Shown piece after piece: positions 8,556 to 54,535 of a stretch of 64,000 nucleotides of DNA (positions are counted from its first letter, which is position 1; each line of letters begins with the position of its first letter). Source of the DNA: Mactra quadrangularis. Its lineage: Eukaryota; Mollusca; Bivalvia; Venerida; Mactridae. The stretch is taken from NCBI GenBank assembly GCA_025267735.1, contig CM046304.1, positions 10,974,001 to 11,038,000 of the forward strand, read 5' to 3'. Both the position numbers and the translations under genes were made by a program. The notes under the pieces were generated by a model. The model searched no databases and was not told the DNA's origin. It saw only the letters and a list, made by a program, of their open reading frames with translations.

Positions 8556-11500
8556 ATGGATGAAGGCAGGGCATTGATTGTATTTCTTATACCAATCTTT
8601 CTACTGTCTGGATATATAGGTATATCATTACTGTTATGTTACTGGCCTAATATCTTATGGCCTAAGAAACAGGATTTGGATGACCATCATCACAATTGTA
8701 AGTATTTGATGTCGTTTTGTAAGTTGTTTATTTGTATAATTGGAGTTCATTCTTTTATACTGGGTTTAACTCCGTGTCAACACAATTTAGGTAATTTTAC
8801 GGCGTCCAGCGCCCCTAACCTAGCTTTCCTGGACCCTTGTCTTTAACCAGTACTCACCTACCTTTCCACAAGGTTTAAAACTTACATTATATAAAACTCC
8901 ATATTATCTAATCAGTGGAGGAAAATGGGCATTATTGTCAAAATTTCATGGAAGGGTATAACCTCCCCGGGTTGGATTCGAGCCCGTACCTCCATGTGAC
9001 ACGAGATTCCAAATCTTGGCGCGCTACCAACTGCGCTATCGACCCGGATTAGAAGTTCTTTCACGAAGTAATTAAATATATTTAAATGCAAAAACTTAGT
9101 ATTTTCCTGTTATTAACATGAATGGCATTAAATACGACTACTAGAGAAACAGTTTACTTAAAATGATTTTTTCTCTTTCTAATATTTCTACTCGACTGTT
9201 TTATAATTCTAGCTGAAGATAAATCTGAAGACAGGATAACGGAATTTGAAAAGTTTGTATTTTAGCCTTATAATCAACGTTTTCTAATTTGTTATAAACT
9301 AAAACGTAATCAAAATTTCGTTCACAAAAAAATCAGATCAATCTACAATTGCATCCATATCCGCGGCCGTGGCGTAGTAAGTAGCATGTCTGACTTCAGA
9401 TCCGGAGTTCGCGGGATCGAGCCCAGTTGCGGAAGGCCATACACTTCAGCTGTCTGCCTCGTGGTATGGTTAGTTAGTACTGGTGCTAGAAAGTGTCCGG
9501 GAAACCTTTAGTCGACGTTAAAAAATTATCCAGAGGATAACCATCCAAATTTTGAAGCTAAAATGGTTTTTTCGTTAAATAGGTATTTGCCATAATGAAA
9601 GCAGTCATATAAAATATACAAAATAATAGCTTAATATAAGACCCCGACACAGAGTTGATTACACCTAAACTGTACCATTACTGAGTTGAACGAACCACTT
9701 TTGTTTGGTGTCTACTTTCGTCTTTCGACGCATTGAAACCAGATTATCTTTTTCGAATAATAACTAATACAAAATAATCATTTCAACAAAATATTCACTG
9801 TCGGACTTGGTTGTCATACTGACTGCTTAAGTAAAGCACTTTTGGATTTTGTAAAAATTGGCTCATGCCTGAGTTAATTGAGCCTCTTATGGTGTAAGAT
9901 GGGATGCAAAACTTAAATCGAGGATGTAAATGTTAATAATCATTTGCAGAAAATTAGTTGTCAAATGGTTTAAATCGATCACCTCACACCTAAATAAGCT
10001 TTAACTAGGAGGGTAGGGAGGGGGTTGAGCCCAGCGATCAACCATGTCTTTTTACATGAACAAGTTGATACTTGCCTATGGAGGATGGTAGTATAGAACT
10101 GATGCATCTTATAGCGCACGTTTAGTCACATCGTCGGTAACCCACGGTACTCATACATTATGAATACCGTGGGCAAATCAACTAGCGAAACCGGCTCTAT
10201 CGAAATTACGACATGAATATTCATGTACAAAATTCGACCAATGAAATCCATTCTAACAAAAATTTAGAATTCTCCGCGAAGAAGAGCTCTCTATTTTCGT
10301 TTACAACGCGTCTGGGGAAAAAGCCGAACAGTTACGAATGACAAAATGGCAGCCTCCTCATCCGACGCCGCTAAAACATGCTGTAGGTGTTTTGGACTAG
10401 TTAAGGGTCGCACATACAGAAGCGTCACTTCAGATGTCTGTAAACATCAATTGGGGCCAATATTCACACAACTTGGTGCCAAACTAAACGGCTATTTGTG
10501 TAATGTTTGTGTAAACAAGTTGAACAGAGTGAGTCGTCTTGAAGACGAATCGAAAACGAAACTGCAACAAATCCTTCTTGAGAAGGAAAAGCTTATGAAT
10601 ATTCTCAGTGATATGTCGGGAGTTTAACAGTCCAGAATTGATTTTGAGCTAACTTCTAAACTACATGTACCTGCTACGACTCCCAAAGGTAAATTTTTGC
10701 TAATTTAAGTTTTAGTTAACTAACATGAAGTACAGTACACATGTGCAAAATTATTCAATATTAACATAGTCATAGCCTTAGTCACAGCAGTCTGTTTCAC
10801 AGTCACCATCTGATGTCACTTGTACTGAAAGGGATTTCATTTTGTGATGTAAATCAAGGGTCCTGTATACGTCCTTGTACAAATTAAGTAGACAATGTTT
10901 ATGTTTAAATAAAACGATAATGATGGAATAAAATGATTTACACTTTCTTCGGGTGGGGTTGATTGTTCATGTCTTGGAGTCTGGTATTGAAATGGTTCAA
11001 ACGTTGTGTGTCTGCTTATGGCTAGAAAAAGTGATCAACACAAAATAACCTACAATAGTTTTTTTGAATGCTCTCTAAGTCTAAGATTGTCCCTTTTACA
11101 TTCAAGATCCAAGAATTAGATGACAAATTCCTTTAATGAGGGGTTGTATAAAGCTGATGTATGAAAAGGCACTTGTACTCTTTTGCTTTAAAGCTAGCTT
11201 TTTATGGCAACATATGATACAGTGTCCAATGGGTTCAATCCCATTTTGGGCTATTTTTATGAGATTACAATGTATTACTAGGCAATCATTTACTAAAACA
11301 GTCTACAGTTGAGCTGATTTAGTGATTACTGAGGATTGTCAAAATATTCTTGGTAATTTTTGGTAATTACTATGTCATTATTTGGTCTCATGTTTATAAA
11401 AGAATGAGTGTAGTATTAAAGTCTTATACTAAGGCCTCTTACTTATGTATTTCTATTTCTATTATAATTTAGTGAATCATTATTGTACAAGTTTGATTTA

Positions 11501-14500
11501 ATGTAAGCAAAATCTGAATATTTTCTGCTCCTATTTACAGAAAACAAGAAGCGTCCTTTTCATGTGGCTTTGACACCAAATACTGTTACCCCTTAGAGTA
11601 AAAGAGGGCTATTTGTCACTCCAAGAAAGAATGTTACTGTAACACCAAAAGTATTGAAACAGAAACCAAATGTTGAAGATAAAAGCACGCAGACCAAAAC
11701 TATTAGTTCAGATTATGTAGTTAAGGTATGTTCTACTTAATTGTTCTGTTCTTCTTTAAGTCAATTATATTTTATTACATGATCCATTAGTGTCCTAAAT
11801 GGAGATGTGTGTCCAGTTATTTTCTCTAAAGAAAATATATTTGCAGTTCTTATAAATATGTACAGATTGTTTTGGGTTAGAATATAGATCTGTTGGTTTT
11901 TGCACCCATATAATTTTACAATAGCCTTCACATTTTATAGATGAAGTACGAAGTTAGTGGTTAGGGACCAGTGGTTAGTATGCTCTACTTTAAACGGCCA
12001 ACCAGGTTTGATTAGCATTAATGGCAAGTCAATTTTAAATGCATTATAAAGTAAACAAGTACAGGTGAAGAAAAGTGCATGCTATCTGGCTAAGTAAACT
12101 GGATCCTGTAAAAATATAAATATTAAGCATAAATGTTTCAGCATAAAACCATACAAAAAGTAAATTGTCACTCCCTCAAGGAAAATTAATATTTTATACC
12201 ATTTTTTATGGAAATGTATAACCTGCCATAGCAAAAAATTGAACCAGGAATGTCCAGATACACATTTTTCTGCTCTACTAATGCATTGTTTTTGATCTAC
12301 TAATGCAAAATGTATCATTCTTCTTATTTCAGGTTATGGTAAAATCTATTCAAAAGGAACGTACATATATTGTACATGACACACTGCAACAGAAGTTAAT
12401 TAAAGTCCTTATACACAAAGGAACTGAGTCTGCTTTTTGTAAACACTTGTCTAAGAAGCGTGCATACAGGGCAGCCATGACAGAAGTGGTCCAAAGACAG
12501 ATCATGAAAGAAATGCAGGAGATAGTGAAGAGAAGAGAAACAATTTTAAGATGTTCTAACAATGAAACTCTATTTGATTTTGACTGGAATTCAACTCACA
12601 GTTTACTTGAGAAAAAGATGCCAACAATAATGTCTATGCTCAAGTGTGCAGTCATCAGAAAGAAAAAATGTTCCCCTCACATAGTAATGGCTGCTAGTAT
12701 TCTTCTGTATGCAAGGAATCAAACAATTAACCTGATACAATATATTTTGGGCATTATCCTAGACAGCAGTGGTTTGACTAAAGAGGTAAGGATTATTATA
12801 ACATGCATTGATTCCTTATCAGTTTGTTTTCCATTGTTGCTTTGGCTCCAGTATTTAGTTCATCTTGATGTCTTATGCTTTATTTTACAACATTGAATGA
12901 CTATGTATTAAGCCACCATACTTAGGTATTTTCATTTACAGCAGCAGTTATGGAAACAGTCTACAGATATCGGAACGTGCAAGTTGTCACACGGTACGGA
13001 CGGTACACGCACGTTATACGAACACGGACTGCACGTTACACGATACACGAACACGTTAGATAGCTTGATTTGCGGTAAAATACACGATTCCGAGTCTCGA
13101 TACACGTTTGACACGATTGTTCGAAATCCTCGGCTTTTTTTCGCCCAGAGAAAAACGTTTCAACGACGATACGTTAAACGATTAATGCGTCTCAAATGTA
13201 GATTGAAAACAAAAAAAATTCTTCTGTTTCGTCGTAAATATGTAACTAAACAATATAAGTTTTGTTAAATTTATTGAAAATCGAGTTTACCTGAAACTTA
13301 AACCTCAAATTCTTAAAAACAAAATGTTACATGTTGGCTTAAAACGAATTTAAATTCACGCACACGATTGTCAACTTCGAAATCACACGATAGATAAAAC
13401 AATAAAAATTTAGATATGTTACATTGGTTCATTACACAGTTAAGCGTGATTGTAAAATATCATATTGTATCAATAAATTTATTGAATATCAACATTTTAA
13501 GTAGAAATTAAGGTACACGATAGGCGGGCAGTCAATACACGATAGACAAAAAAGAACACGATTGATAATATTTTGTATAAAACTTAAATTAGTACACGGT
13601 GTACAACAAAAATACAAACTGTATAATAAAGAATATTATTACTGTCAAAATAATTTAATGTCATTCTTAGTAAGTTTGTTTTAATCGAATTAAAAACAAC
13701 ACAAAGCCGATCAACTCACACGATTGATAAAAATACACGTTTAAAGTTTTTTTCCTTTGTTTTCTTCAAGTCATTCATTGAGAAAAGATGCCATAATTGT
13801 ATGTGTATATGTTTCAAAAGTTAAACACAGTCTTAGCTTGATTGTAAAAATATAAGCAAGTCATATAGTATAGATTATTTTATTGAATATCGTCATTTTT
13901 AGTAGAAATTAAGATACACGATAGGCGAGCCGTCATTACACAATAGACAAAGAAGAACACAATTGATATTTTTTTATCAAACAAATTATGTAAGTACTTG
14001 ATGTATAACAAAAATACAAACTGCAGAATAAAGAATAACATTACTGTCAAAAATTGTTTATGTCATTCAGATTTGAAACCACACACACGATAGCCAGCGA
14101 AACCCACACGATAGAAAAAGAAATACACGTTTCAAGTTTTTTCTCTGTTTTATTTTCAAGCCATTCATGGTGAAAAATACTTTGAATTAGTATATTTTTT
14201 CAAAACACAGTCTACGCGTGATTAAAAAATATAAGCATGTCATATTGTATAATGGTCGCCTTTTTAGTAGTATGTATACTAGATATAAACGTTTACATGC
14301 AGTGCTTGCGTGAAGACGCGGTATTAAGACAGTACACACACCGTGTTAACTTACTATTTTATGCCGACTACAAAATCGATATTTAAATAACAAGTTTTAC
14401 ATATAAATACGCGAATATGAGTGAATAATACGAATAAACTGTAAAAACTAAATTATTTAATTTACTTTAAGAATTAAAAAAATGATGACTTTTTAATCAT

Positions 14501-17500
14501 ATAGAGTCGTGATAAATGACCAAGTGAGATGTCAATTATAACAGTTTGTTTACTAAACGCTTTAGCCACTGACAAACAAAGAAAATGTTTGATGATTAAG
14601 ATAAATGAAAGCATGTGTTTACATTTTAAATATAATACAATTATAATGATTATTTTAATTTACCGTAGTAACAACATTTCGGTTGGGCCGTAATTTAATT
14701 GACCGTAGATTGGTCCGGTATGAGCCGCAGTTTATCGACGTACGGCATTTTAAACAGGAATTTCCGGTTTAAACATAGTCAACATTTATTCTAAACTCAA
14801 CTTAATGAATGGCGGTTTTTCTTTTTGTTTACGGATGATGATTTGTCGACAATGTATGAGTATTTAATATATTTATACGTATGGATTTGTCAATATCTCG
14901 GGCACACGATACACGATAATAAAACGCAAAATCACAATATCTCGGACCGATTTTTCCGTGTATTTACACGATGAGCGGTCTACACGTTACACGATTGAAA
15001 TACACGGTGAATTATACACGCACACGGTATGAATGATACACGCACGATACACGCACGATACACGCAAATTTCGGAAACTTGCACGATCCGAGATCTGTAC
15101 AACTTTAAAGCCAATTAAAAATAACAGGTTTTAGCCACTAAACAATCGTGCAAAATATTTTTCTTTCCAAGTTTAAGTAAAACAAAGTGGCCATTTCTTA
15201 AAAAGGGCGATGACTTTTGACAAAATATTATGATAAATTGATACAACATAAATCTACATCAGTTAACTGTCTTCATTTTTTTTGCTGTCCATGTATATAG
15301 TCTTGATAATGGGGCTTTAAATGATTTAAAAAAATATTTTCAGGGCCTCAATATCGTTCATCAAATAGGGCTTACAGTATCCCATACAAGTATTTACAAT
15401 AAAAAGAAGGAGTTGATCTGTAAATAAGAAGAAAATATTGAAAAAGTTGTGAAAAGCTATGTTCAAAAAAAGACTTAGTAAAGCTGATGTTAATGAACTA
15501 GTTAATGTCAGTGATGAACCAGTTCCAATTGAAGTACTTGGTGACAATCTTGATGTAACTGTGTCACCAACAAAAATGACTTTAGACCATCAGAGACAAA
15601 GTTTGCATTGGTTTTTAACAATGCGAAACAAAGACAAGTATTATATGAAAATTCTGATTTGGTCAGTGATGCCATGATGCAACCCAATATTTTGACCATG
15701 TCTACAAATAGCTGGGTTCCAGAACATTGTCAGCTAGAAGATCTCCATAAAGATATGTTGTTTCATATAGCACATGTACTTATAAAATACATAAAGCCAT
15801 TAGAATTTCTTGGCTCTTCATACCCTGAATACATAGTGCATCCATACATTGAACAGACAAAACAAAAATCTGTTATACTTAATTGTGAATTAGTGGATGC
15901 TAGTGAAAATTCATCACAAGGTATGATTGAAATACTTCAACAAGTTCACAATTTAACAGTTACTCATAAAGAAGGTACACTGATTGAAAAAGTTGTTTTT
16001 GGAGGAGATGTTTTGACAAATGAGAGGGCATTTTCTGCCCAATCTGCGATGCAGAATAACAAAAGTGATTTTGATAAACTAATGGGTGTTATCCATTGTC
16101 CAGAAGGACTTCATAGACAATTCAATTTTCTACTCGATATATTTCGTTTCTCTTGCAAGTTCACTGTTTCTGGAATAGTTGCACTGTTCTGTTCAGTTGA
16201 TGTAAGTTTGTTTTGATTTCTTTTGATTGACTTAAAAATATCTGTTTGCTAAACCAAAGAACTGCAGCTACATTCATTGTAGAATTGTTTCAGTAATGAG
16301 TCCTTGCCCATACACAAAATTTCTCTCACATATGGAGTTTCAAAGGCAAAAACACAATTTTTTTAGTGCTGTCTTGTAGATTTTCATTTTCAATGTTAAT
16401 ATTTTACTAAGTTACCTATGACAACTAATTGTTTTTAACAAAGGAGCGAAATCTTGTTTGGGAATGGGTTTAAGGAGATTTATAACATAAAGCATAGGTT
16501 ACATGTAGGCAATGACTGACTTAAAATTCACAAATGTTCTGGTAGTATGTTTGAACAGAAAGAAAAACTATGCCATATTCAGACAAATAAAAACTGCGTT
16601 ATGTTTTAACAAACAGAACTTTTCAAGTTTAGTTTTACAGCTCTTCACTTGGGTTCAAAAGTTTCTTTACACATATTTAATTTTGATGCTTTAAAGTATA
16701 CTCTGATACACTTCACATACAGTTATTAGTTTCATAACTGAAATACAGATTAACATGAACCATCAAAAATGTGTTTTTGAATTTTAAATATGAGATGAAA
16801 ATTCTGATAGAATTGTGTCTGCAATAATTTCTTCTATACAAATAAAGAGAAAGTATAAAGAATACATGTGTAAAGAAACTTTCGGACCGCAGTGTATACT
16901 CTTTTACCCATAGCAATTTCTTGTAGGGTTGGTATATTGACCGAGCCAGTGATAAATACTGATTTAACCATCCAATACAGTTTAATAGTAGAGCTGTCAC
17001 GATACGCCAGATGCATACCGCGATATATTGCAAAACACTGTCACCGTATCGCGATACGTAGCACGATATATTTTGAGCTATTAGATTTGTTGTTCCTTCT
17101 CTGTATTTAACAGAAAAAATGCAGCTATTGATAAAATCAAGCCTCTTTAGTATTTACGGTCATTCAGGACTGAGATGCGCCCCAATCGGTTAAATTCTTG
17201 CAATTTCAAGTTAAATGGAATGAACAATGGAAAAACTGGCGTGACGCTGTTTAATTTCCTTTAAGGAAAACATTTTCAATGAAGTAAAAATACAGCCAAA
17301 TACTGGTACATTACAAGTACTGCGGTACGCATTGCTTCAGCTCTGTATTGCAATATACTGGTATACCAGTATATTGTGACAGCCCTATTTAATAGTGGTC
17401 AATACTGGCCAATTGAAAAAATTCGGTGCTTTTATTAATTCTTGATAATGAAAGAAACATATTCATTGAAAAAAATATTGACCTAATCATCCAGTATTGA

Positions 17501-20500
17501 CCACTTTTAGGAGATATCACCAGGACGGTTACCCCCCCCCCCAAGTTAAGACAGTCCTGGTCAATACTTAGCCAACCCTAATTTCTTGACAAATACCCGT
17601 TAGGGGAGTATTCATATTTTTTCTTTTTTTTTAATGTCGCATTCAACACATATATAGGTCATATACATGACGGCTAGCTCTTTCTATTATAGGTTTCCTG
17701 GACACTTTTTCTATCACCAGTACTAATTTAACCTACCACCGCGACCGGGATTCGAACCCACGATCTCCGGATTCGAAGTCAGACATGCTAACCACTACGC
17801 CATGACCACGGCTTCATCATATTCAGTAATAGGCCTAGTTTGTACTTAGATAGTTTTGAGTAAAAATTTTCATAAGTACATATAAAAACAATTTACCAGT
17901 ATCTAGATAATGAAAAAGAAATTGGCAAAATGAACTCAATAAAATTAAGGTGCATTGATTTGGGTTTTGCATGCATTGTACTTTCAACTTGACTAATATT
18001 GATAGTCATGTGGAATAATCCTTCAACATAAATATTAGGGATGAGACAATACGTACATCACATAGATACGAAAGGAGAGGATATCATTATTTACAATACA
18101 GGTAGTTATTGTAAAAAGATTGTAAGCAAGCATTCAAAATATTCATATTGCTTTGGTTATGATCTCTTTGAAAATAGACTCATAAGAGACATGCTTTCAT
18201 TAGTCTGTTTGAGAACTCATTAGCAATACATATTGATATATCATTGATTTATCAGCATATTGTCTCATCCCGTATATGTTGTTGTTTGTTATACCCCCGC
18301 TTCGAAGAAGAGGGGGGGGGGTATACTGTTTTACCCGTGTCCGTCCGTCCGTCCTTTACAAAATTTCCGTCGCAGTTTTCTCAGCAACTATAACATGCAG
18401 CAGCCTAATACTTTGCATATTGCTTCATCCCATAGTCCCATGTGGTGTAAAGCGATTTCATGCTCCTTGCTCATCTACTTCCTGTTTGTTGCATTTTTTA
18501 GATTTTTGCGAGGGTATCACTAGTGAGCATTAATTCACAGATTTAGTTGTTTTCTTTGTTTGAAATTAACTTTACCCTTGCCATAAGTATATCACTAGAA
18601 AGATCCAACGTGCTGTTCTTGGACTGCTCATATTTATTTGTTTAAAAAAACAACAACAATATTCACAAAAAATCTTTACATACATTTTCAGACCATTTAT
18701 CAGCTATTCTATAAAGAAACAAGTGCTGTTGATAGGGGATCATTGTATCAGTTAAGAAACTTAATCAACCGTCGTGATGTTAGTTGACCTAAAGATGTTA
18801 CTCAGAAATTTAGGTAAGAATACTGATTTACAAATATTTTCAGTATATTTTTCTTCTTTAAATTTTACAGACTTTTAGCTTTACTTTGAGACATATTATG
18901 GCATGGCGCTTATCTATTCGTCAGTCTGTTAAAAGTTCATGTCTGCTTAACTCAACAACTATTTGTCCTACAATGATTATATTTGGTAGGAAGGTTGGTC
19001 ATGGGCAGTAGATGATCCTTATTGATTTTAGGGTCACTTATCCATCTTGTGATAAATTTGAGTCTTGTGACAACACAAACTTCGGACGTATAATGCTTAT
19101 GGAGCTCTCATACTCATATCTATCAAGAATATTGTAAGAATGTTCAAATGTGTTCTTAAAAGCTAGATATATGGCCTAACCATGAAATGATCTTACGAAC
19201 ATGTGAAAAGCCAAATCAATTATATCTACTATTTATGTAAATGTATAAAGTATAGAAAAGACCAATCAAAGGTATCTCAAAATGTCAGGACATCTGATTT
19301 ACATAATATAACTTATTTAAATATTAAGTAGCTTTGCCCAAAGCTTTCCTACTGATATTACTTAAACATTGACCCTTTTAAGACCAAGCTTGTTTTATGA
19401 AATATTTGAAAGTTATTTATTGCTTGTGATTATTTAGGTAAAAACCTATATCAGAGCTCGAATTTAACAAAAAATTGGACTTGCAAATTTTGCGAGTATA
19501 ATTTATTTAAACTCGCAAAATCAAAAAATTACTTGCATATTTTTCTCAAAATTTTAATAGCATACATAATTTATATGTCTTTATGTAATATAAAAACAAC
19601 AAATTACTATATTTAAGTGTAGATTGAACAATGGTGTTACTGTTGGATAGGCAAAGAATATCAAACATTTTTATGGTGAATCTTTGATCAATAATACCGA
19701 TCTATCTTGCCGTTTCAATGCTGATGTTAGCCTCATCAGTTTAGACAGCAATATTTTGCGTCGATTTCAACTCGCAAAAATTTGCGAGTTGAAATAAAAG
19801 TTACTCGCAATTTTTAAAATCTACTCGCATTTTGCGAATATGTGAGCTTAAATTTGAGCCCTGTATATGACAAATGTAAAACTTAAACATGCATTCCACG
19901 AGAAATAAAATCTGTTTTTTTTCTGCAATGTGGAGTGCATTAGATTGACATTTTTTTCAGACCACATCAGCACTTTATAGAAGATGTCACTGGTGCATAT
20001 ATTCTTGCATCTTTTTGGGAGGTAATGGAAGTGGAAGAAGAGGATGGTCTAACCCAGAAATTGCCAGTGTTTTCAAAAATGAATGATGAACAACTTAAAA
20101 AATGGATTAATGATCTTTCCTTAAAAATATTTGATAATTTGCATTTAAGGGAAGTTAATAATTTTGGTCAGATAAATCAAGATTTGCTCAGTTTAGGTAC
20201 AGAAGATGAACAAATAGAGAAAATGAAAGTAAACAACCAATATGTATGTCCATTTTGTAGTAATAGTTTTTCATTATTAACTTGGTTCAAGAAACATCTT
20301 AAAAGCAAACATAATTGGAATTTTCATGATTGTAACAAAAATGTTAACCCTACTTCTGCTGTAAAACACTTAGTGTTCATGTCACTAATTTTTAGAGACA
20401 CTTGTGATGCGTATACCGCTTAGCTGATGGTAATAGAATCATAAGAAATGCATATTTTGAATGGTTGTATGCTTCAGCTGTAAAACATTCGAAGTATAAA

Positions 20501-23500
20501 ATCTGGCTCTGGCGTATGATAAGTTATGTAACGTCCATTCTTAATGTTAAGGATAGCTTTGAATACAAATGGAACATGTGTGTAAATTTGAAAGGAGGTA
20601 TTGGAAATAGTATCCCAAATGATAATGCGGTGGAAATTCAAGTGTGTAATATAAAAAGAGAATTAAACACTCAAGGTGCAAATAAATCATATCAGTCGGC
20701 TAGAAAAATATGCATGACAACCCAAGTTATTGATAAGATAAAAAATGAACTCATGCGTACAACTAAGACTGCTAGGTCAAAACGAGAAAGGCCTACAAAA
20801 GATAAAACAAAAGATATTAACACCATGGTTCAATGTTTGAGACAACAAGGACCAATTAGTAAGTTTCAGTGGAATAGTTTTAGTGAATATAAAGATCCTA
20901 TAGGGTGCATTGACAGTGATAACCTCCATACATGGATAAATTCTCAAAAAATGCAAGTTTGTATCTTTAGACCAACCAGACAGGCTAGACTTAATCTTAA
21001 AGGGGTATACAGGCAAAAGTTAAACTTCATATTTCCTGATTTTGAATTATATTTTATCTGTGAATGCAACAGACACACTGTTATATTACTTGGCAAAATA
21101 TTTATTTATTTTCTCGCAATATTTCAAGCGTTTTCTAACTAGACCCATGTGGGTCAGGTTAGCTAAAAATATATTAGTGTTAAAATATGCATTTAATAAT
21201 GAGAAGATACTAGATCTTATTATTGTTCAACATAAGTATAATTCTATTTAAAAAGATATCCAAACTGCCTAAGAATGTTGAAAAGACAAGAAGTGGCCAA
21301 TGTCAATGTTTAATTTCAGCAAGTACGACATATAACTAATGTATAAATAGCTTGGTGATTTCCTCAGTATCCTACTTTCATTTTCAACAATGTGTATGCC
21401 ATATGTTTTAATTCGTTCCGTTGAACGTTATAAGTGACAAATTTTATTAGTTAATGATTTCTTACGTTCTGAATACTGTTTTAAAGACCTTACTTGGTTC
21501 TATACTTATGGCACAGTCATTTGCCTGTTTATCCCTTTTAATGTCTTGTCATGCATATTTTTCTAGCTGATATGAAAAAAATATTATTTTAGTGAAGTTC
21601 TTAATTTTCCTTGGAAATGGATTTTTATTAATGGAACATTTTTGTTTACTATTACTTCTTTATTTCTTAAGGTATCAACTTCCAACTTTATATACATGTT
21701 CCTTATCATCAACCAGGAGTCCCTTTAAAGATGATGTTTCGACACCTTTGGGGATGTATTAAGGGCCCTTTAAAGGTGATGTTTCGACACCTTTGGGGAA
21801 TTGTCTGCTTAACAGTAGCATCATGTTATACTGTTCAGGACAACTTCAAATATCAAACTAATAAAAACAAATGTAAAAATAAAGTCATATCATGAACTAA
21901 GAGGGTTTTTACTTATTTTGTTTTTATTATTTATCTTTTGTACAACGCCATTCAATATGTAATATAAAATAGGCGTTTAATCAAATGAAGAAATTTTAGT
22001 TTAAGTTTAACCACATCTCATGTGACAAGGTTCTTGACTCTAAATGCAATGTTTTAGAATCATCTCCCCTTGAACTTAGAATTTTCTTTTACATAATATT
22101 ATTTTATTGTTACTTCTCTATTTCTTAGTATCTACTTAAAACATCAAATATATGTTCCTTTTCATCACACCACATCTCTATTTGTTCATCTTCTGGCTTA
22201 AACATTTCAAAAGAAGTTTAAGTCAGTGTCAGATATTATTATCATTATCGTTAATACTATTATTATTGTATATTATTTTCTATTATTATTATTATAATTA
22301 TGACTATAATGAATATTGAGTTGAACACATTTTAGCCATTTTAAAGTATTTAAGTGTTGGTCTTTAAACTGCGTAGTGTCCGTAACCCATATAGATATAT
22401 ATTCAACTCTTTATTTTTAAAGAAACTGTGACAACTTCAGCTAAGATTTCATTTTTTTTAGCATGAAGGTGTTTACTTTTAAAATGATACAAAATTCAGC
22501 TTCTTGTAGTTTAGTTTTCAATAGATTTTACAGCCACATATTATTTAATTATGAAGAAAATCCTGAAACACTATACTTGATATTATTTTTAGACATTGAG
22601 CAAATTTTTTTGTGCATTCTTACATAAAATCATTCCCTCATTTGCTTTAACAAGAATGTTTGAATAGAGTTCACTTAAAAACTTACTTGATAGTGTTGAA
22701 ATAGAAACAGTGAAAAAAATGGTTACGGACACTACTCTGTGTATAGGTTATCATATAACTGGGCTAAAACATATCTTGATCATCTGGACAACAGTTTTTC
22801 TTTCCCTTATCTCATAGTTTAGTTATTTAGCTTGGACTTAAATGTTATAATTTAACCATTCTTTGTTTCATGTGGCATTGTTGATAGACTTGCAGGATAG
22901 TGAAAAATGCTCGAAATGTCTTCATATTTTCTTGAAATTATCTTTTTATATTTAAAAAACATATGAGATATACAAATGTGATTGTTAAAATGGTAATTTA
23001 TCAAGGGCTTTGTAGTGTTCGTAACCATCTTCAAAGCTGTCTAAAACAATAACCTGCAAATATAGGAGTTTTATATTTTGTACATTTATAAAAGGACTCT
23101 ATTCCAATTAATAAAGGCATGATAATGACTTCTCTCATGAATAATAACAGTGTATGCATCCAATGAAGTTTAGGTGGTTACAGACACTACAACTTTTTTT
23201 TATAAAAAATGTTGTAAAAAATTTTGTTGCCTGACAAATTCTAAAATCCCTTTTGTAAATTTTAGAGTTTTTCTTGAACATAAGTTCATCTTGCATATTT
23301 AAGATGAATTCAAGTTGATCTTGTTGTTACTTTTGTAATATAACCAAGCATCTATCTCTCAATTTAAGAACTCGGTGAAATTCCCTTCGATCAGGAAAAT
23401 AGCTGTAACATGGCCAAATCTTGGTATATTTCTGTTCTGTTTGCGTCAAAATTTATGAAAAGGTTGTCATCAAACATGGAACTTTACATGTGTGTCAGAA

Positions 23501-26500
23501 AAGTATGTGTTAACATTTCATACCATTGTTAAGTTTAGTGTTTTTAAGTGGGACTGCATAACGCCAATAAAAGGCCATTTTTGGAGTACATATTCTAACT
23601 TTTCTCAGTGATCTGAAAAAGATAGACGTACGAAATTTTCTGGACATCAAAACATCTTATATTTTTATACAGAGAACATCTAGTTGCTATATTTTGGACT
23701 TTACATTTTAAGAAAATAACATATAACATTAAAAAAAAACCTCTTTCCCCGAATACATTGTTTTAGCCGATACTATACTCATTTTTTAAGTTTTAAGAGG
23801 GTTCGAACACCTATAGAGCCTTAACTTTTATTTATAATGTTTATGTTAACTGTGATAGTTTCTTCATATTGCAATCATTAAATTGAACATAATTTTATCA
23901 ACGTGCTTTTGTCAAATACACAGGTGACAGACTCAAATTTTCCTAATTATAGTATGTATATATATATACTATAATAAGGAATACTTATACTACAATAAGG
24001 AAAATTTGAGTTTGTCACCTGTGGTAAAATATTGCTCTGCTCTTTTTTATTAAACAATGCAAACAAATTTAAGGGAAACAAAAGCATCGTTTAGTCCGCT
24101 TGACAAGTATGCAAACACTCAAGTGCTTCAAATCACTTTTGACATAATTTCAATTTCACACTCATAAGGAATTCCACCTAACATAATACATAAAGCAAAT
24201 TGTAATTTTGATATTTAAGCACTGTTGAGCACTTGAAGACATGAAGATAGTTAGAACTGAACATGTTTATATGAATCAGTAGAAGAAAATTCTGTCAAGC
24301 ATGTTACAGAATATTATATATTTCATCTAGAAAAGGTACACATGTGTAAATTGTATGTTTATATTATGTAATATTGTATGGGTCAAAGGCCTTTAAACAT
24401 TATTTGTAAACATTATTTGTTAAACAATATTCGTCATTGTCATTATTATATTTAAAAGCAAGGTATCTCTCTGTTTATTTAGTCCGAAAGTTAGTGTGTA
24501 CCACACCTTCAAACTTCTTTCAGAATTCTTGTCTTATGAACAGGAAAACATTTTGAAATATGTTACATTATAATATTGAAAATCCTTAACAGTCAACATG
24601 ACGATTCAACACAATGCCTTGAGTTTCATTAAGGATATAAATACTTTAGTGTTTTTTTCTTGCCGTGACAATCATGAGAATGATTTTTAGATTTGTACAT
24701 TACAGTGAATTTAGAAGTCATTTATGATATATGTCATGCTTTTTGGCTATGCAAATGACCAGGGATATAACTATATAATAAACTATGTGTATGCTTTCAT
24801 TTTATTGTTATATGCATGTCAATTATTTATGGAAGTTCTTTTTTTATTGCATCCTGTCATGTCTTTATCTTGTAGTCTTCTTCACAGATTTATTCCATAA
24901 CTTTTATATGCCCTACTATTGTCCGTTTTTTTCTAAACTGTCAAAGCTTGAATAATTTCACGGTGATTGAATGCATTGTTTTTGTACTGGCGGTCTAATT
25001 TTCATTAATAATATCTTGACAAAAACTTATAATACGGCATAAGAAGCTTTACTCAATCATATTGCACACTTTCGGTAACTCATGGATGTATTACGACGAT
25101 AATTTTAACGAACACATTCACCGTGAAATTATTTATGTTTTGACAGTTGAGAAAAAAAACGAACAATAAATGGCTTGGTAAATTTGATGTTACATGCATG
25201 CCTTTGTATTATTGCAATAAATGTTACCCAAAAGTGTTGTTTTTATTTATTTTAATGCATTGCATAATATTTCTGTAACAATACCTTGGTTACTTTTGAT
25301 TTCTAGGTATTGTTCATTTTCTCAACTGCAAACAAATAATATCATGGTGACTTGATGTTTTTTGTCTTATGCTGGTGATATTGTGATAGAGTGTATTTAA
25401 TCATCATGAAGTTATTTAATCTTTGACAGTTGAGAAAAAATGGACAATAGGTGGAGTCACACTAATGCACCATACATGTATATTCAAAAGATATACACAA
25501 TTTTTACGTACCATAATATCACTTTATTTGTTATTACATAGTTCACTATTCATGTATTCACTATTCATGTATTACAACACAAATTACAATTTAGCTGTTC
25601 ACTAAATATTGTAATAAAAAATCTCCTTAATTAGGCTACAGATGTCTATGAGCTCAATAAAACGTGGGTTACATCCAAATGTAAACAAGGCTTTCATAAA
25701 AAGTGTACTTTGAAAAAATACTGTTTTCAACAATTATAAAACAACAGTATTCAGTGGTAAATTATCATATGAAGTAATTTTACTTTTTGTTTGGAAATAT
25801 AGTTTGCCTCCTAGTTGTCTTTAACATGCATAATATTGTTTCTTTCTTGTACTTAATATCTTTCTATATCATTCTATGTTTTATTTACAAATGTTCTGCT
25901 AAAAGAAAAGATTGCACTTCATTGTGTTGTCTCTATAAGTTAAGTATTTATCACTGTATTTATTGTTTTTGTTCTTTATTTAATGACAATAATAGATAAT
26001 TTAAAAACCAGTATATCATGACTATATAACCTGTACATGAACAGCAAAATAAATGGAAACAGGTAACTGGTACAGATGTATGTTGAATCCATTAACCTAA
26101 GTCATCTTAATATTTTTCAGCATTATTAATTGCATTCCAAATTAGTGAAATTAGATCGAACCTGAAAGTTAAATGTTATTTGCGAATAAAAAATGAAACT
26201 AAAAATTGGTTGAAAAATATTAATCAAGCTAAAGCAATATAGTTTATGTAACTATTTATCATAAACGAAGAAATTTGAGCTCTTAAAAAGAACAAATGGC
26301 AACATTGTTTAACTAAACCTTTGGAAGCAAAACAGTTTTATTTAGTTATTTTCTGTATTTAAACCTTTGGAAGCGAAACAGTTTCCTTAAGTTATTTCTT
26401 GTCTTTCATCCAGTATAATCTGCATTAACAGTCACCTGCTATCAGTGGTCACCAGCTGTAAGTGGCCAATCAGGTTTCCTCCAAATGAAAATCACCTTTG

Positions 26501-29500
26501 AACTTTTTCTAAGTAGCCTTCTGCTGTATGTGGCCAATGGTTGCCCATTTCCAAACAATGGCCACAGTCAATTAGATTAAGAATCAACCAAGTATCCCCA
26601 TCATTGTATAATGGTACAGACCATTGAAAACCCACCAAGTTAAGTCGTTAACCAATCTAATTACGTCAACAAAGCATTATCACATAAAGTAAGACTTTAA
26701 GTATACAACTGACAATGTCACTTGAGTTCTTTTCTGAAGATCATTTAATAAAAAAACTACACGAATAATTAACTATTCAGATTGAACTGATCAAAGCATT
26801 TTATCAAAACCTTGTTTAAATGGTCACCAGCAGTAAGTCATTGAGTCATTTCCCCTCACTGGCTGCTTAATGCAGGTTATGCAGTATTTACTTGACTTAA
26901 CAGTTGTATATACACCATATATTCTTAAACAGCAGATAAGAAAACGGTCTTGCACTCTAGAGAATGAATGATTACAAACTTATGAACAAAAAATGTTTGT
27001 AAAACCAATAATTTATACTAAAACAAAAAACTTTTGCTGAAGTCTTGTATGAATATTTTAAACACGGAATGATGATAGCTTAAGTAAACGTCAACAATCG
27101 ATCATTGACATCAATGCATAGTTGTTATAAATGAATGTAAATACACGTACAGTAAAAACTGCATTAATGGTCACATGCTATCAGTGGTCACCTCATGTAA
27201 GTGGAGAGTTTGATTTTCTCCCAACAAAAATATTTCTAGTCCCAGCCTGCAATAAAGCGGCCACCTAATGATCTCTTCACTGTAAAATCATTAATTTACT
27301 AGTATTAAGTCTAGAGGTCAAAGTTGATGGATTTTGAAATATAAGTGTGGTAAATGCTGTAAAATGGGTTTTAGTAGTCACCAGCTTCAAGAGGCCAATC
27401 AAGTCATGTCAGGTCACTGGTGTTTTAATGCAGGTTCAACAGCAGCTTATCATACAATTTCATTGTAGAGAATGCATGGTATTTACTATTACATTGCGGC
27501 ATGTGACAAAGTATTCATAAATAATTTAAAATAACAGTTCAGGGTGTGAAATTTTGTATATAAGAACATAAAAACAAGGCTTTCCTTACCATAACTACAC
27601 GCAAGTCATACATTTAGTAAGAATTGTGAGTCTATCACAACAAATTTACAAAGTCCTACAAAACAACTTCAAGTAAATACATAATAGATTTAAACAAACA
27701 TGCCTCTATGTGTGTATGTGGAGGAAAGCCATTTTACATCATCCTATGGTGATAATTTTTAACAATGAATTTTGAGCACTACCTATGAAAGTATGAAATA
27801 GTGCAATTTATCTTTTTAAGCAAATTTGGATTATTGTACACAAAGAAAATGAAAATTTATGTCACTTTTAAGTATATTAGCCTCGATTATTAAGTATGTA
27901 AAATACACAACATAGAAGGTTAGTTATTTATTTCTTAAATAATACATTTGATTCGGATTTTAAGTTTAAGAGGTTTTCTCCCCATTTCCAATACAAACAT
28001 TTGTTCACAATAGAAGTTTTCAAACTACAGTGCCCTCGAAACGTCCTTGGACAAAATCTTGGACACCCATGCAACAAAGAATCATCTTTGTAAATTCCAA
28101 AAATCATATTTAATGCCATTCTAAAGTTTTTCGAGAAGTTAGTATTCAGAAAACAAAAAAATATTTACACATTATTAAAAGTATGTTAACCATTACTGTA
28201 AATAAAACTTGTGATATGCATGATTAGATTTCTTTCGTCCAAGAACTTTAGGAGGGCACTGTATTATACACTTACGTAAGGTTGGTTATATCAAACCAAG
28301 TTCAATATCAAAACACACAATATACTATGTAAAAAACAGTTGTCAAATACACATTCATTAAACAACCATTAATATATCTAGATAAGATTTCTTTACCTTT
28401 AATAAAGTTAATGAGGATGATACAACCCATTTAAAGTTAAAGGTCTACGACTTCTTTATCTCATAAATACCAAATTTAACAAGTTGCTAAATGCTACTCA
28501 ACTCATGTTAAATTTTTTAACATACATAATCTTAATACGTTCAGTATTTAAAGTGGATCTAAGCTTTCTGATTTGCAACTAAATCTCTCAAGCCAGATGA
28601 GTCTTTCTAAGCATTATTCCAAACTCAGATATGACAAAAAGTGGAAACAGAACTCATAATTAGAAAATTCTAAACAGCATTTGATATATGACTTTAAAAA
28701 GTAAGAGTTTGCAGACCCTAAATGTTGTTTTTACAAAGACTCGGAGAGTCAGAAAAAGATTTATTAGGTGATTCCGAAAATGAAGGAATTTCAACGTCAA
28801 AAAATAGATGATTAAAGTTTAAACAAGATGCGTCACCACAATTACAATCTCTATCACAAATATCACAGCACAAATGCTTGACTGATTGTCCAACATGAGC
28901 ATCATAAGAGTTCAGTATAAGCTGTCTTCTACAAACATTAACATTTAAAGTATACTCCTTCATATCAGCATCTATACTCTTTGTTTGTTAGCCATTGTAA
29001 AGTAACATTTCAGTAGCATACTTGCCATCTCTTCCAGCCCTTCCATACTGCTGAACAAACATATCCATGTCCTTGGGTGGGCCAAAATGAACAACATGTT
29101 TCAGTCCTTTAAAATTGACGCCCATTCCAGCAGCACTTGTGGCAATTAAAATTCTGATAGTACCATTTGGGTCATTCATGTTCTCTTTCACGTCATCCTT
29201 GACAGTTTCTGTTGTTTGAGAATGATGCATTTCAACATGTTGCATTAAGGTTTCATCTAGTTCTAACCTGAACATGGTGTAAACTTCACTACAGGTTTTT
29301 ATTGTCTGACAAAAACCAATAAATCTTTCACATGATTCCCTTTTTCTAGTAATTAAATCAATTAAGAAATAGAAGACTTCTGATAAATTACTTATAGAAC
29401 TTTTACACTTCTCCACAAATAATTTTATGTTATGTCTATCAGGTTTATCAATATCTTCATAGCAGTTTTTCATACAAAAGGTCCCTTTCAGCTTCTTTCT

Positions 29501-32500
29501 TGCAGCATTGTTGGCAGTGGCTGTTATAAGCAACAATGGACAGTTTATTAATGATCTGATTTCTCCCAATTTACTGTACCAAGGCCGAAATGGTGCCATG
29601 GAATCTTAAAATTGACCCCTGAAAGAAAACATCATACCATTAAGTTTTAGTAAACAAGTGAAATCAAATTCAAAACAAAACAGCACTTAAAATGTTAATA
29701 AAATAGCTCCAGAATATATACTAATTTCTTTTATTTTAATATTAATGAGCGGCGATCATATCATATCTATGCAAGTAGTATGATGTACTATGATATAGCC
29801 CAAGTCAACAAGTCAATTTACTTACTAATTTTTACTTACTAATTTAGGCCATTGCACATCTTAATAGGAAAGCCTTTCATTGTAATAGCAAGTGTTGTTC
29901 AGTTTATTGACTAATAGTAATACACACTGCATGTTATTATCAATTTACACAATATAAACATAGCAGCTATTTTGAGTATTATTATGTAATAATGTTCACT
30001 GATATCATTTACCCCCCCCCCCCCCCCCCCCCCGTTTGCTTTAACCTGACACAGTAGGCTTTGGTGTATAAACTATAATGGTGTACAGTATGTTATCACA
30101 ATAAGCAATATAATGGGAACTGTTTTCAGCAGACCACCTATTGACTAGCATTGACCTGTTAAAACCAGTATTGACTGCCAACCCAAGTGTGTATTCAAGT
30201 TGTAAAAAGAGCTGATACAAAATTTAGTTTAAAAACAAAGAATCAGTGCCAATGTCCGGTCGATACAATAGCCCTCACTGTACATCACTCACTACTACTG
30301 CTGCAACAATCATCCCAATGTGTATTATTAATTTACATAACCTTACCAGTGCAGAACTGTGTGAGCTTTATCAATTACAAGAAGCTTAATAGTATCTGTA
30401 CTTCTCAACATGTCATTCCATTTACTAACACCTGAAATCAAATTAAAATTTATTAATATTTTAATAATGAGATTGAATAGCAATTGCCCATATTTGTCAG
30501 TAATAGGTAATACTTATTTGTCTAAATAACTCACTAAGCATGGTTGGAAACTGCCCCTGGTATATAAATTATTCGGCTTTTTCTACACAGATTTGGAATT
30601 TGAGACAGGACCAGCTTATACCCAAGGCTAAAATTGATCAGGGGAAAATTGATGGATGATGTGATTTCAGCATTTTCAGAACATTTGCTCCGGACAAATA
30701 TCAAAACAGAAAGTATATTTTCCAAAAATCTGGCTCTTTGCAATCCGTAATAAATGCAATTCACTAGTAAACTAAAGCCTGGGATTTTCAGTCTACTTTT
30801 AATACATCTACAGACTACTTACCCAGAATGAGTTACACTGTAAATGCCATGTAAGTAATATCATGCATATAATGCAATGCTTGTAGAATGAAATTAAGGG
30901 TACACAAATACTATTGTGGTTTGTTTATAACTGATTACACCACAAATACTATTGTGGTTTATTTATAACTGATTACACTAATTATCAGCCACCAAGCTAG
31001 CTCAGTTGGTAGCACTCAAAACTACTGATCGAGGGGTCATAGGTTTGATTCCCAGGCAGGGAATACTTTTGTGGAGCTTAAGTTAGTCATGAAAATATTC
31101 TTTGTGGCCATTTTTCTTCCTACCAATGATTATTTATTATGTAGGGCAGTTGTCAGTCACGGACAACACTATGTGCTTAGTAGTTGGTTAACAGTTTAAT
31201 CCAGACAGTAGGCTGACTGACAGCCGTTATCTTACCTATACAATGTGCTGCAACGGCGTTAAACCCAACAACAAACAAACACATTAATTATTGTCGTAAT
31301 AGTCATCCTTAAGCCAATTTTTGACCCCCTGATCCTAGAGGGTAGCCTTGCCTTGAACTTTATCTGTATGAGTGGGTATACCAATTTACAAGGGAGCTCT
31401 TGAGCATCATGTCACTTGGACTTTCAAGGACTTTAGCTTGGACATTTTTGGTACGATACTAACTTTTGGATGGCAAGAATTTCAGAAATACGAACTGTTC
31501 GTGAATGTGAATGGGCATGAAAATAACGAAATTTTAATAACATTCACCTAATATACTTTCTGGAGAAGTAAACACAAATTTAAAATTCCCACTCAAAATC
31601 GTGTCATCTTCAGCACTATCTCTCCCAATGTATGTCGCCGTAAATCCAACTGAAGATAAATATTCACTTTGTTCCTTCATGATTGAAATCAGTGGACACA
31701 CGACAAGCACCTGACACATTTCACCATGTTTTAGGCTCCAACAAGGCTGAAATAACTGGTAACAGAGAGATTTCCCACCTCCTGTCTTCTTACAAAGAAA
31801 CACGTCCTCCCCTTTCAACAAATGATCCAATGTTTGTTCCTGAAACAACTTCAATTTATCTATTCCGAACTTATGTAGAATATCCATGTTGACGAGCGTG
31901 GAGGCTGCCATCTTGAATGAAACTGCCGAACGCGATATGTAAGGTGCATTTTCATTGGACGTTGTGCGCTTCATGAGTTCATGAAGAAACCAATCAAACG
32001 TCAGGATTTCGGGTTATGAATAATTCATTAGTACAAAAAATGCAGTCGTATTGCCCAGGGTATTATCGTTGACGTAATACCCTGGGTTACGGAGGATCGT
32101 TGACGTAATACCCTGGGTTACGGAGGATGGTTTAGTCATCGACTATTATACATGTAAATGTAAATAACTAAACATAGAATAATTCACGTATTTAATTAAG
32201 GTTCTAAAGCTGAAAGCTAATGCCTCACGATATATCACGATACGTCTCAACACCTATCCTTACCAAAAACAATACGACAAACACTACTGTTTGGGCGTGA
32301 GCGAGACGCGTTTATTGTACAGAAATATACATGTATTCACAATACTTATCTGCTTATTACTTATTGACAATTAATATTCATAAATATATATACATAAACA
32401 CGTATGTAAGTCAATAAGAAAAGTATTACATAATGATTTAATTATAATTCATTTCAAAAAATCCAAATAACCATAACGTTGAATGACGTACATATATATA

Positions 32501-49941: not shown

Positions 49942-50018
49942 GCCGCGACCGTGGCGTAGTGGTTAGCATGTCTGACTTCGAATCCGGACATCGCGGGTTC
50001 GAATCCCGGTCGCGGCGG
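49942..50018 (+). repeat. tRNA-like (Arg TCG-like) SINE head
   Basis: 'gccgcgacc' at the start pairs perfectly with 'ggtcgcggc' at the end. The A box is 'gtggcgtagtggttagcatg', the loop contains 'cttcgaa', and the B box is 'gggttcgaatccc'. D-stem pairing is weak and the anticodon loop is larger than normal, so I treat it as a SINE B head or tRNA relic rather than a working tRNA. Confidence 0.6.
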
Positions 50019-52612: not shown

Positions 52613-52626
52613 GGGTACACGGGGGG

Positions 52627-54535
52627 TGAACTTTCTATTCTGTCTTGGAATGTTAATGGACTTATTCATGATAAAAAATCATGTATGGACTTTGTAAATG
52701 TTATTTCTAGTAATGATATCTGTTTTCTTTATGAATCTTGGTCTAATTCTAATAGTAATGTCAAAATTGATGGATTTGTCTCTCATAATTTTTATAGAAA
52801 GTTTCAACACCGCAATGCATGTAGATCTAGTGGTGGTCTTGTAGTGTATTATAAGGAGAACCTAGCTCCAGGTGTTGAAGTTATCAATAATCATTATGAT
52901 ACTATCATATGGCTTAAACTTTATCACAACTTCTTTAACATTGAAGAAGATATATACTTATGTGGTGCATATATATGGTGCCAAGATTCTCCTGTTTATA
53001 ATGTTATAAATGTTGATCTGTTCGAAAAATTAGAAATAGACGTTTTTAATTATAGTAATCTAGGATCTATTTATATCACTGGCGACTTTAATAGTAGAGT
53101 AGGCAATAAAAATGACTTTATTATACATGATGTAGTTAATACAAATATTGATGAGCCAGATTATGAACCTGATTGTATCTCATTTAGAGACACTTTAGAT
53201 AAGACTACTAATAGCCATGGTATTAAATTATTAGATTTTTGTAAATCGTCTTGTCTTCGTATTGTGAATGGTCGTATTGGTAACACACACAATTTTACTT
53301 TTATGTCACGTAATGGTACATCTGTTATAGATTATTTACTTTGCCATGAACGCCATTTTTCTAACATCAAAGAATTTTCTATTGGTAACTTTAATGAATG
53401 GAGTGATCATGCACCATTACATTTTGTCTTGTCATGTAACCATGTGTCTGAATCAGAAAGTAGTTATAAAGAAACCAAATTTAAATGGAATGATAATCAA
53501 AAACAAAAGTTTAGAGCAGGTGTTATTGCTAGTTTACCATTATTCAATGATATTGTTAATAATATAGATGTTAATCAAAGAATCTCTGTGAACAATGCCT
53601 TAAATAGTTTCACTGAAATATTACGTAATGTCGCTGATCCTTTGCTCTAAAAAAATTGTCATTTTAGAAATATTTCCATCTTTGATTCGGAAAGATTCTC
53701 AAAACAAGCAGACTGGTTTGATACCGACTGTATGAACGCTCGTAAAGTATATTTAGATTATCTGAGTATTTTTAATAGAGATAGATCAGACATAAACCGA
53801 ATACAGCTAAGCGAACAAAAAGCTATATACAAAAACTAATTAGAAAAAAGATTATTATAAGTTAAAAATGATTGAAATCGAAAATCTAAAAAAGGAAAAC
53901 CAAAAGATTTCTTGAAGATTTTTAAATCTAAATCCAAAAGTTCGAGCAGTTACATACCCTAAGAGGAATTCAAAGAGTTTTTTGCTAACGTAAGCAATGG
54001 TATGTTTCAATGTGAAAATGAAGATGCAGAGAATTTTTGTAATAGTAATAATTTTAACGAATGTAATGATATTTTTCCTGAATTAGATTCAGCGTTTACC
54101 ATAAACGAGATAAAATCTGCTGTCAAACTTTTAAAACGTAATAAGGCCTATGGTAGCGATTGTTTACTAAACGAATATTTTATTGAAAGTGTTGACATTT
54201 TAGCTTCGCATTTATGTGATTTATTCAATTGTATTTTAAGTTCAGGTTGTTTTCCTGAAAAGTGGACAGAAGGTTTTATTATACCGATTCATAAGAAAGG
54301 TAGTAAGTCAAACGTCAATAATTATAGGGCGATAACTCTAGTTAGTTGTTTTGCCAAACTTTTCACTACTATAATAAACAGAAGAATCGAAACTTTTTGC
54401 AATGAAAACAATACTATTTCTGATGCACAGTTTGGCTTTAGAAAAAATATGTCTACTGTTGATGCAATTTTTACATTAGCTTCTATTGTACAAAAATATT
54501 TAAGAGATTATGTACTATGTACTTATCTGAAATAA
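52627..54535 (+). pseudogene. LINE ORF2: APE endonuclease and RT N-terminus, deleted
   Basis: The endonuclease starts ELSILSWNVNGLIHDKKS, then CFLYESW, YITGDFNSRVG, SVIDYLLCHERHF and EWSDHAPLHFVLS, so the catalytic N, E, D and SDH residues are visible. Stops from about 53650 to 53990 interrupt the linker. RT resumes with IKSAVKLLKRNKAYGSDCL, WTEGFIIPIHKKG, NNYRAITLVSCFAKLFTTII and AQFGFRKNMSTVDAIFTL, and is then cut at about 54500. There it runs straight into 3'-UTR-like 'tatgtacttatctgaaataa'. The catalytic YADD region is deleted, so the copy is dead. Confidence 0.8.

Follow-up and report, generated by a model that had tools for sequence, protein, structure and literature searches.

A decayed 22-kb bivalve transposon, very probably of AcademH type, with DUF6589 transposase and RecQ-like helicase genes

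The window analysed here is a stretch of 64,000 nucleotides of Mactra quadrangularis DNA (C12:10974001-11038000 of a 979-Mb assembly, which is the genome referred to throughout). At 10129-32129 it holds a 22-kb element with inverted ends, a 9-bp target-site duplication and two convergent genes, one for a transposase and one for a RecQ-like helicase. In our view the element is very probably a DNA transposon of AcademH type, present here in a decayed state, an assignment made via its helicase and the duplication length published for that type. The copy in the window is dead, as both of its genes are broken.

Termini and genes of the element

The outer limits of the element are marked by GTTTAGTCA, an exact direct repeat at 10120-10128 and 32130-32138 that occurs only these two times in the whole window; its reverse complement was not found there. 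Random pairs of positions in the window had a 9-mer in common 11 times in a million trials. The inverted ends adjoin the two copies, reading CATCGTCGGTAACCCA from 10129 onward and CATCCTCCGTAACCCA from 32129 backward. The right end contains a 31-bp tandem duplication (32065-32132), and with this collapsed the similarity between the ends spans ~45 bp. Comparison of the 50-bp ends, after collapse of the duplication by script with one extra T remaining, gave a score of 21, a value reached or exceeded in 1 of 20,000 random pairs (random best 24). Subterminal palindromes are present at both ends: CCCACGGTA...TACCGTGGG at the left and CCCAGGGTATTA...TAATACCCTGGG at the right. Fold z-scores against shuffles were -5.6 for the left end, -3.8 for the right end and -6.0 for the right end collapsed by hand. 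Just upstream of the left end, TTGCCTATGGAGGATG at 10072-10087 is similar to the element's right terminus, from which it differs at 4 of 16 positions; this may be chance. The features of the element are as follows.

10120..10128, + strand: left target-site duplication GTTTAGTCA, exact match to 32130-32138
10129..10173, + strand: left terminal repeat, inverted match to the right end, with a 33-bp subterminal palindrome at ~10141-10173
10346..10688, + strand: transposase exon 1, with the N-terminal CxxC...CxxC region and a TAA stop at 10625; extent from relative P0001 and the open C11 copy
11541..11725, + strand: transposase exon 2, stop TAG at 11594
12333..12785, + strand: transposase exon 3
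15344..16135, + strand: transposase exon 4, N half of DUF6589, including the motifs GDNLD and GGD; disrupted by a TAA stop at 15425, two frameshifts and loss of the GT donor at 16136
18692..18811, + strand: transposase exon 5, stop TGA at 18785
19961..20970, + strand: transposase exon 6, zinc finger and C half of DUF6589, frameshift near 20413; end from the C11 copy
28718..29618, - strand: helicase exon 3, Helicase_C and Cys cluster, stops at 29608-29606 and 28990-28988
30347..30431, - strand: helicase exon 2, DEAH motif reading DKAH (codon 30369-30367)
31548..31911, - strand: helicase exon 1, N part of DEAD
32054..32129, - strand: right terminal repeat, inverted match and fold, with the 31-bp tandem duplication and a palindrome at ~32054-32086
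32130..32138, + strand: right target-site duplication GTTTAGTCA, exact match to the left copy

The six-exon gene on the + strand encodes a protein of Pfam family DUF6589 (PF20231), matched at E 8.5e-20 by the broken window version and at 7.8e-28 by an open copy on C11. Eight lesions break the window gene, namely four in-frame stops, three frameshifts and the lost GT donor of exon 4, which is present in the C11 copy; the stop at 10625 is also found in the C5 copy. The Pfam search with the window version and the first search for relatives used a transposase model with an earlier exon-1 donor, and scoring in the latter covered residues 170-860, which lie clear of exon 1. That first search, in which the 7992 candidates sharing most words were scored, gave 6 relatives at E<=1e-3, the best from Mactra antiquata (88% identity over 58% of the query). 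A profile search identified 101 relatives among 4336 candidates, and none of the 101 carried a helicase domain in the same protein (candidates limited to 0.55-1.75x the query length). On viral contigs, 413 stretches matched a pattern and none of them encoded a transposase relative.

The predicted model of a transposase relative aligns best with the P-element and Hermes transposases, subject to the alignment tool's own caution, and appears to contain an RNase H core with a helical insertion and conserved D/D/E residues. Foldseek with the transposase model returned 274 matches at E<=10 and none at E<=0.001. From the modelled fold and the conserved residues we infer a DDD/E transposase that would act by DDE catalysis.

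On the - strand, three exons encode a RecQ-like protein with DEAD and Helicase_C domains, whose best sequence matches in the PDB are RecQ-family helicases (E 6.6e-33). It bears three lesions in the window: two stops and the DKAH that replaces DEAH. A total of 3623 proteins matched the helicase at E<=1e-20; the named relatives among the best 47 of these are molluscs (bivalves and one Haliotis) and one annelid, and the first bacterial name comes next, at 6.9e-33. A fragment of the helicase (query residues 261-408, 34-35% identity, two TAG stops) is repeated at six places (C7:1550149, C15:61278773, C13:35604582, C16:38943621, C15:24736572 and C11:10670916), where it is probably carried by another repeat family.

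The original prediction for this DNA had described an exact 9-bp duplication outside both ends, inverted ends, and two convergent split genes starting 217 and 155 bp inside them. The duplication, the ends and the two genes on opposite strands were all seen as described, and the transposase ATG at 10346 agrees with a start 217 bp inside the left end. An upstream in-frame ATG likewise fits the helicase start 155 bp inside the right end, but comparison with relatives points rather to the ATG at 31911, at a distance of 218 bp from that end.

Family copies and mini-elements in the genome

All copy counts given for the genome are lower bounds. A 217-bp query from the left end matched at least 43 places, 20 of them long (94-100% identity), and a 365-bp query from the right end matched at least 20. 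Nineteen of the 20 long left ends start at query base 1, and the exception has a duplicated end. Including the window, 16 left-right pairs were found, so that the same termini form the boundary in 15 other paired copies. Their target-site duplications measure 9 bp in 12 copies; two further copies have 10 bp and two have 8 bp, and the target sites have no consensus. Three left ends (L007, L016 and L020) and four right ends (L035, L037, L050 and L051) were left unpaired, and L021, a long left end outside the 16 pairs, belongs to a 205-bp element with an 8-bp duplication. All 20 long left ends (L002-L021) have the left palindrome intact. Of the 19 right ends considered (L032-L050, excluding L051 with its 76% match), 18 have an intact right palindrome. 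In 3 of the 16 paired copies there is a terminal tandem duplication with the target-site duplication outside it: the window, the right end L042 at C8:15.94M and the left end L017 at C15:38.87M. At C9:44279626-44306205 (L012, L035, L036), two outer right ends with mirrored helicase matches lie around one listed left end, an arrangement that looks like an inverted duplication.

Transposase exons were found in six copies of the family (the window, C8:15.94M, C8:6.15M, C11:14.69M, C15:38.87M and C10:22.0M), and helicase exons are present in every one of the six. Outside the family, PF20231 matches lie at six divergent loci. At four of these (C2:37.51M, C3:27.22M, C10:8.36M and C8:51.33M) a RecQ-like match lies convergent within ~15 kb, and the sequence itself showed both genes at C8:51.33M and C3:27.22M; no RecQ-like match was listed near C7:34.74M or C17:48.03M. 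The four paired loci are probably other helicase-bearing lineages in the same genome. Terminal repeats were sought at two divergent loci with DUF6589 and helicase, scanned in 9.9-kb stretches, and gave no convincing pair. The claim that transposase and helicase form a single mobile unit is borne out by the complete pairing within the family and by the four paired divergent loci.

The C11 copy (16,507 bp, duplication AAAGTGAAT) is open through both spliced genes, with six transposase exons (966 amino acids), three helicase exons (444 amino acids) and GT-AG junctions. In both C8 copies, the unspliced matches to transposase exons 4 and 6 and to helicase exons 1 and 3 are open. Exon-5 matches contain stops in both C8 copies and in C11, where the stops fall outside the spliced exon. 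The transposase at C15:38.87M has one stop, and that at C10:22.0M is partial, with stops. Not counting gaps, 668 of the 16,028 bases aligned between the window and C11 copies differ (4.2%). The C11 copy, the only open one used for this comparison, lacks ~5.8 kb of the 22-kb copy in the window. Two such stretches are listed here, the first of which is probably a nested insertion.

12966..15097: 2.1-kb stretch in intron 3 with 24-bp inverted arms (12962-12985 and 15076-15099; 92% complementary), not present in C11
21344..23835: 2.5-kb intergenic stretch that C11 lacks

Two shorter copies (9,359 and 9,553 bp) have in common an internal deletion breakpoint by which the transposase core was removed. 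A broken helicase is retained in two fetched derivatives without the transposase core.

Far smaller derivatives are numerous. The left 37-mer was found, with up to 3 mismatches, at 194 places in the genome, and a reversed control at none. It was exact in 59 of the 100 places listed, and 40 of these 59 were sampled, leaving out 9 at long copies, C12:40597942, 7 seen earlier and 2 others. All 40 are elements of 64-90 bp with a right end (<=2 mismatches in the last 12 bases), and one identical 74-mer recurs in 17 of them. Their duplications are of 9 bp in 27, of 8 bp in 7 and absent in 6. A script located the right end at 8 of the 12 loci L020-L031, where the duplications measured 9 bp at two loci and 8 bp at two, and were lacking at four. 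A 90-bp mini-element has the same flank at six of the 40 places (L064, L066, L068, L073, L095 and L096) and has probably multiplied there inside a larger repeat; L063 and L031 also have a flank in common. Therefore, not every mini-element represents an independent insertion.

Around the element, the domains matched by ten chosen flanking open reading frames (ORFs) were GIY-YIG, Exo_endo_phos and RVT_1, and none of the ten matched a host-gene family. The GIY-YIG ORF (2288-2566) could, at a guess, be Penelope-like, and the Exo_endo_phos ORF (52613-53647) lies in an element like a long interspersed element. A tRNA-like repeat, probably a short interspersed element, is present at 49945-50014 (Rfam RF00005) and, by self-matches, at 9357-9432 and 17739-17802, the last copy being inside the transposon.

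Relation to known transposons

Helicase-bearing elements of the Academ type are already known, and the window family would be a further member, compared with the Academ references by description only. An excerpt of PMC10045372 gives duplications of 9 or 10 bp for AcademH and of 3 or 4 bp for AcademX, and relates this difference to the presence of a helicase versus a nuclease. The family described here encodes a helicase, has duplications of 9 or 10 bp in 14 of the 16 paired copies and, going by the fold and conserved residues in the relative's model, probably encodes a DDD/E transposase. The original prediction had proposed a helicase-bearing Academ lineage, which agrees with this published description, but had suggested that a 9-bp duplication might set the element apart as a distinct group. 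That suggestion does not hold: since 9-10 bp is the length published for AcademH, the duplication argues for AcademH and not for a new group. In excerpts of the literature, AcademH occurs in animals and fungi, with PMC10799480 reporting it in fungi, an expansion of Academ is reported in bivalves (PMC10294476), and Academ-1 is listed in a clam genome table (PMC8905726). Points in which the window family may differ are its separate convergent genes and the 8-bp duplications in 2 of its 16 copies.

AcademX belongs by name to the same superfamily, but is described, in the same excerpt, with a nuclease and duplications of 3-4 bp; duplications of 8-10 bp in all 16 copies do not fit this. In the two spliced proteins of the open C11 copy, no nuclease was found at E<=0.01 besides helicase-type ResIII and Cas3-like_C_2, the rest of the element being scanned in part. 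The transposases of the P element, hAT (Hermes) and Transib/RAG1 would share with the modelled relative an RNase H core with a helical insertion, and P and hAT duplications, at 8 bp, come close to 9. However, they form a different sequence family, and none of these elements is known to carry a helicase.

Movement, alternatives and significance

We propose that the DDE transposase would recognise roughly the outer 37 bp of both ends, excise or copy the element and insert it into target DNA through a stagger of 9-10 bp, which host repair would then fill in. On this scheme ~37 bp from each end would suffice in cis, and we assume that dead copies and mini-elements are mobilised in trans. The helicase would probably work on the DNA of the ends or, once strands have been transferred, on that of the target, or in post-insertion repair.

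It is unlikely, in our view, that the helicase is a passenger gene without a part in movement. The broken helicase kept by the two derivatives without a transposase core would suit such a gene, as would the spread of mini-elements lacking both genes, although from the latter it follows only that both genes are dispensable in cis. Against this, a convergent RecQ-like gene lies close to the DUF6589 gene in four divergent lineages of the same genome, and nine aligned helicase relatives are 41-60% identical to P0008. A bolder proposal, and a quite unlikely one, is that the helicase is an active part and that AcademH moves by a helicase-assisted route other than simple cut-and-paste, such as one that includes limited replication of the ends. 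Such a route is hinted at by the terminal tandem duplications inside the target-site duplications of the three copies noted above, and by the palindromes at the ends, which an enzyme of RecQ type could unwind.

A distinct, undescribed superfamily that pairs a DDE transposase with a RecQ-like helicase by chance and makes 9-bp duplications is very improbable. In its favour, the likeness to Academ is one of published description, transposase and helicase are encoded by separate convergent genes, and DUF6589 was not named in the literature searched. However, the helicase together with 9-10 bp duplications is the description of AcademH itself, as far as the excerpt gives it, and the reported expansion of Academ is in bivalves.

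Kolobok duplicates TTAA, whereas the window family targets sites of 8-10 bp without consensus, which contradicts a KolobokH-like element. Kolobok lineages combining a DDE transposase with a RecQ helicase do exist, and in an excerpt of PMC9587614 one red-alga family carries the helicase on the complementary strand, but the same excerpt reports KolobokH (Kolobok with RecQ helicase) from fungi only; we give this alternative a negligible probability. Equally negligible is the chance presence of two host genes inside a repeat-flanked stretch: introns split both genes, but the same pair stands between the same termini in the six transposase-bearing copies found, and both window genes are broken.

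As a probable AcademH-type transposon, the family provides a natural system for a little-studied transposon type, with an open copy, exact ends and duplications measured across copies. With the cautions stated, the predicted fold would also tie Pfam DUF6589, a 'family of unknown function', to P-element/hAT-like transposases. Moreover, the 74-bp elements appear to be sufficient substrates, and the role of the helicase thereby becomes directly testable.
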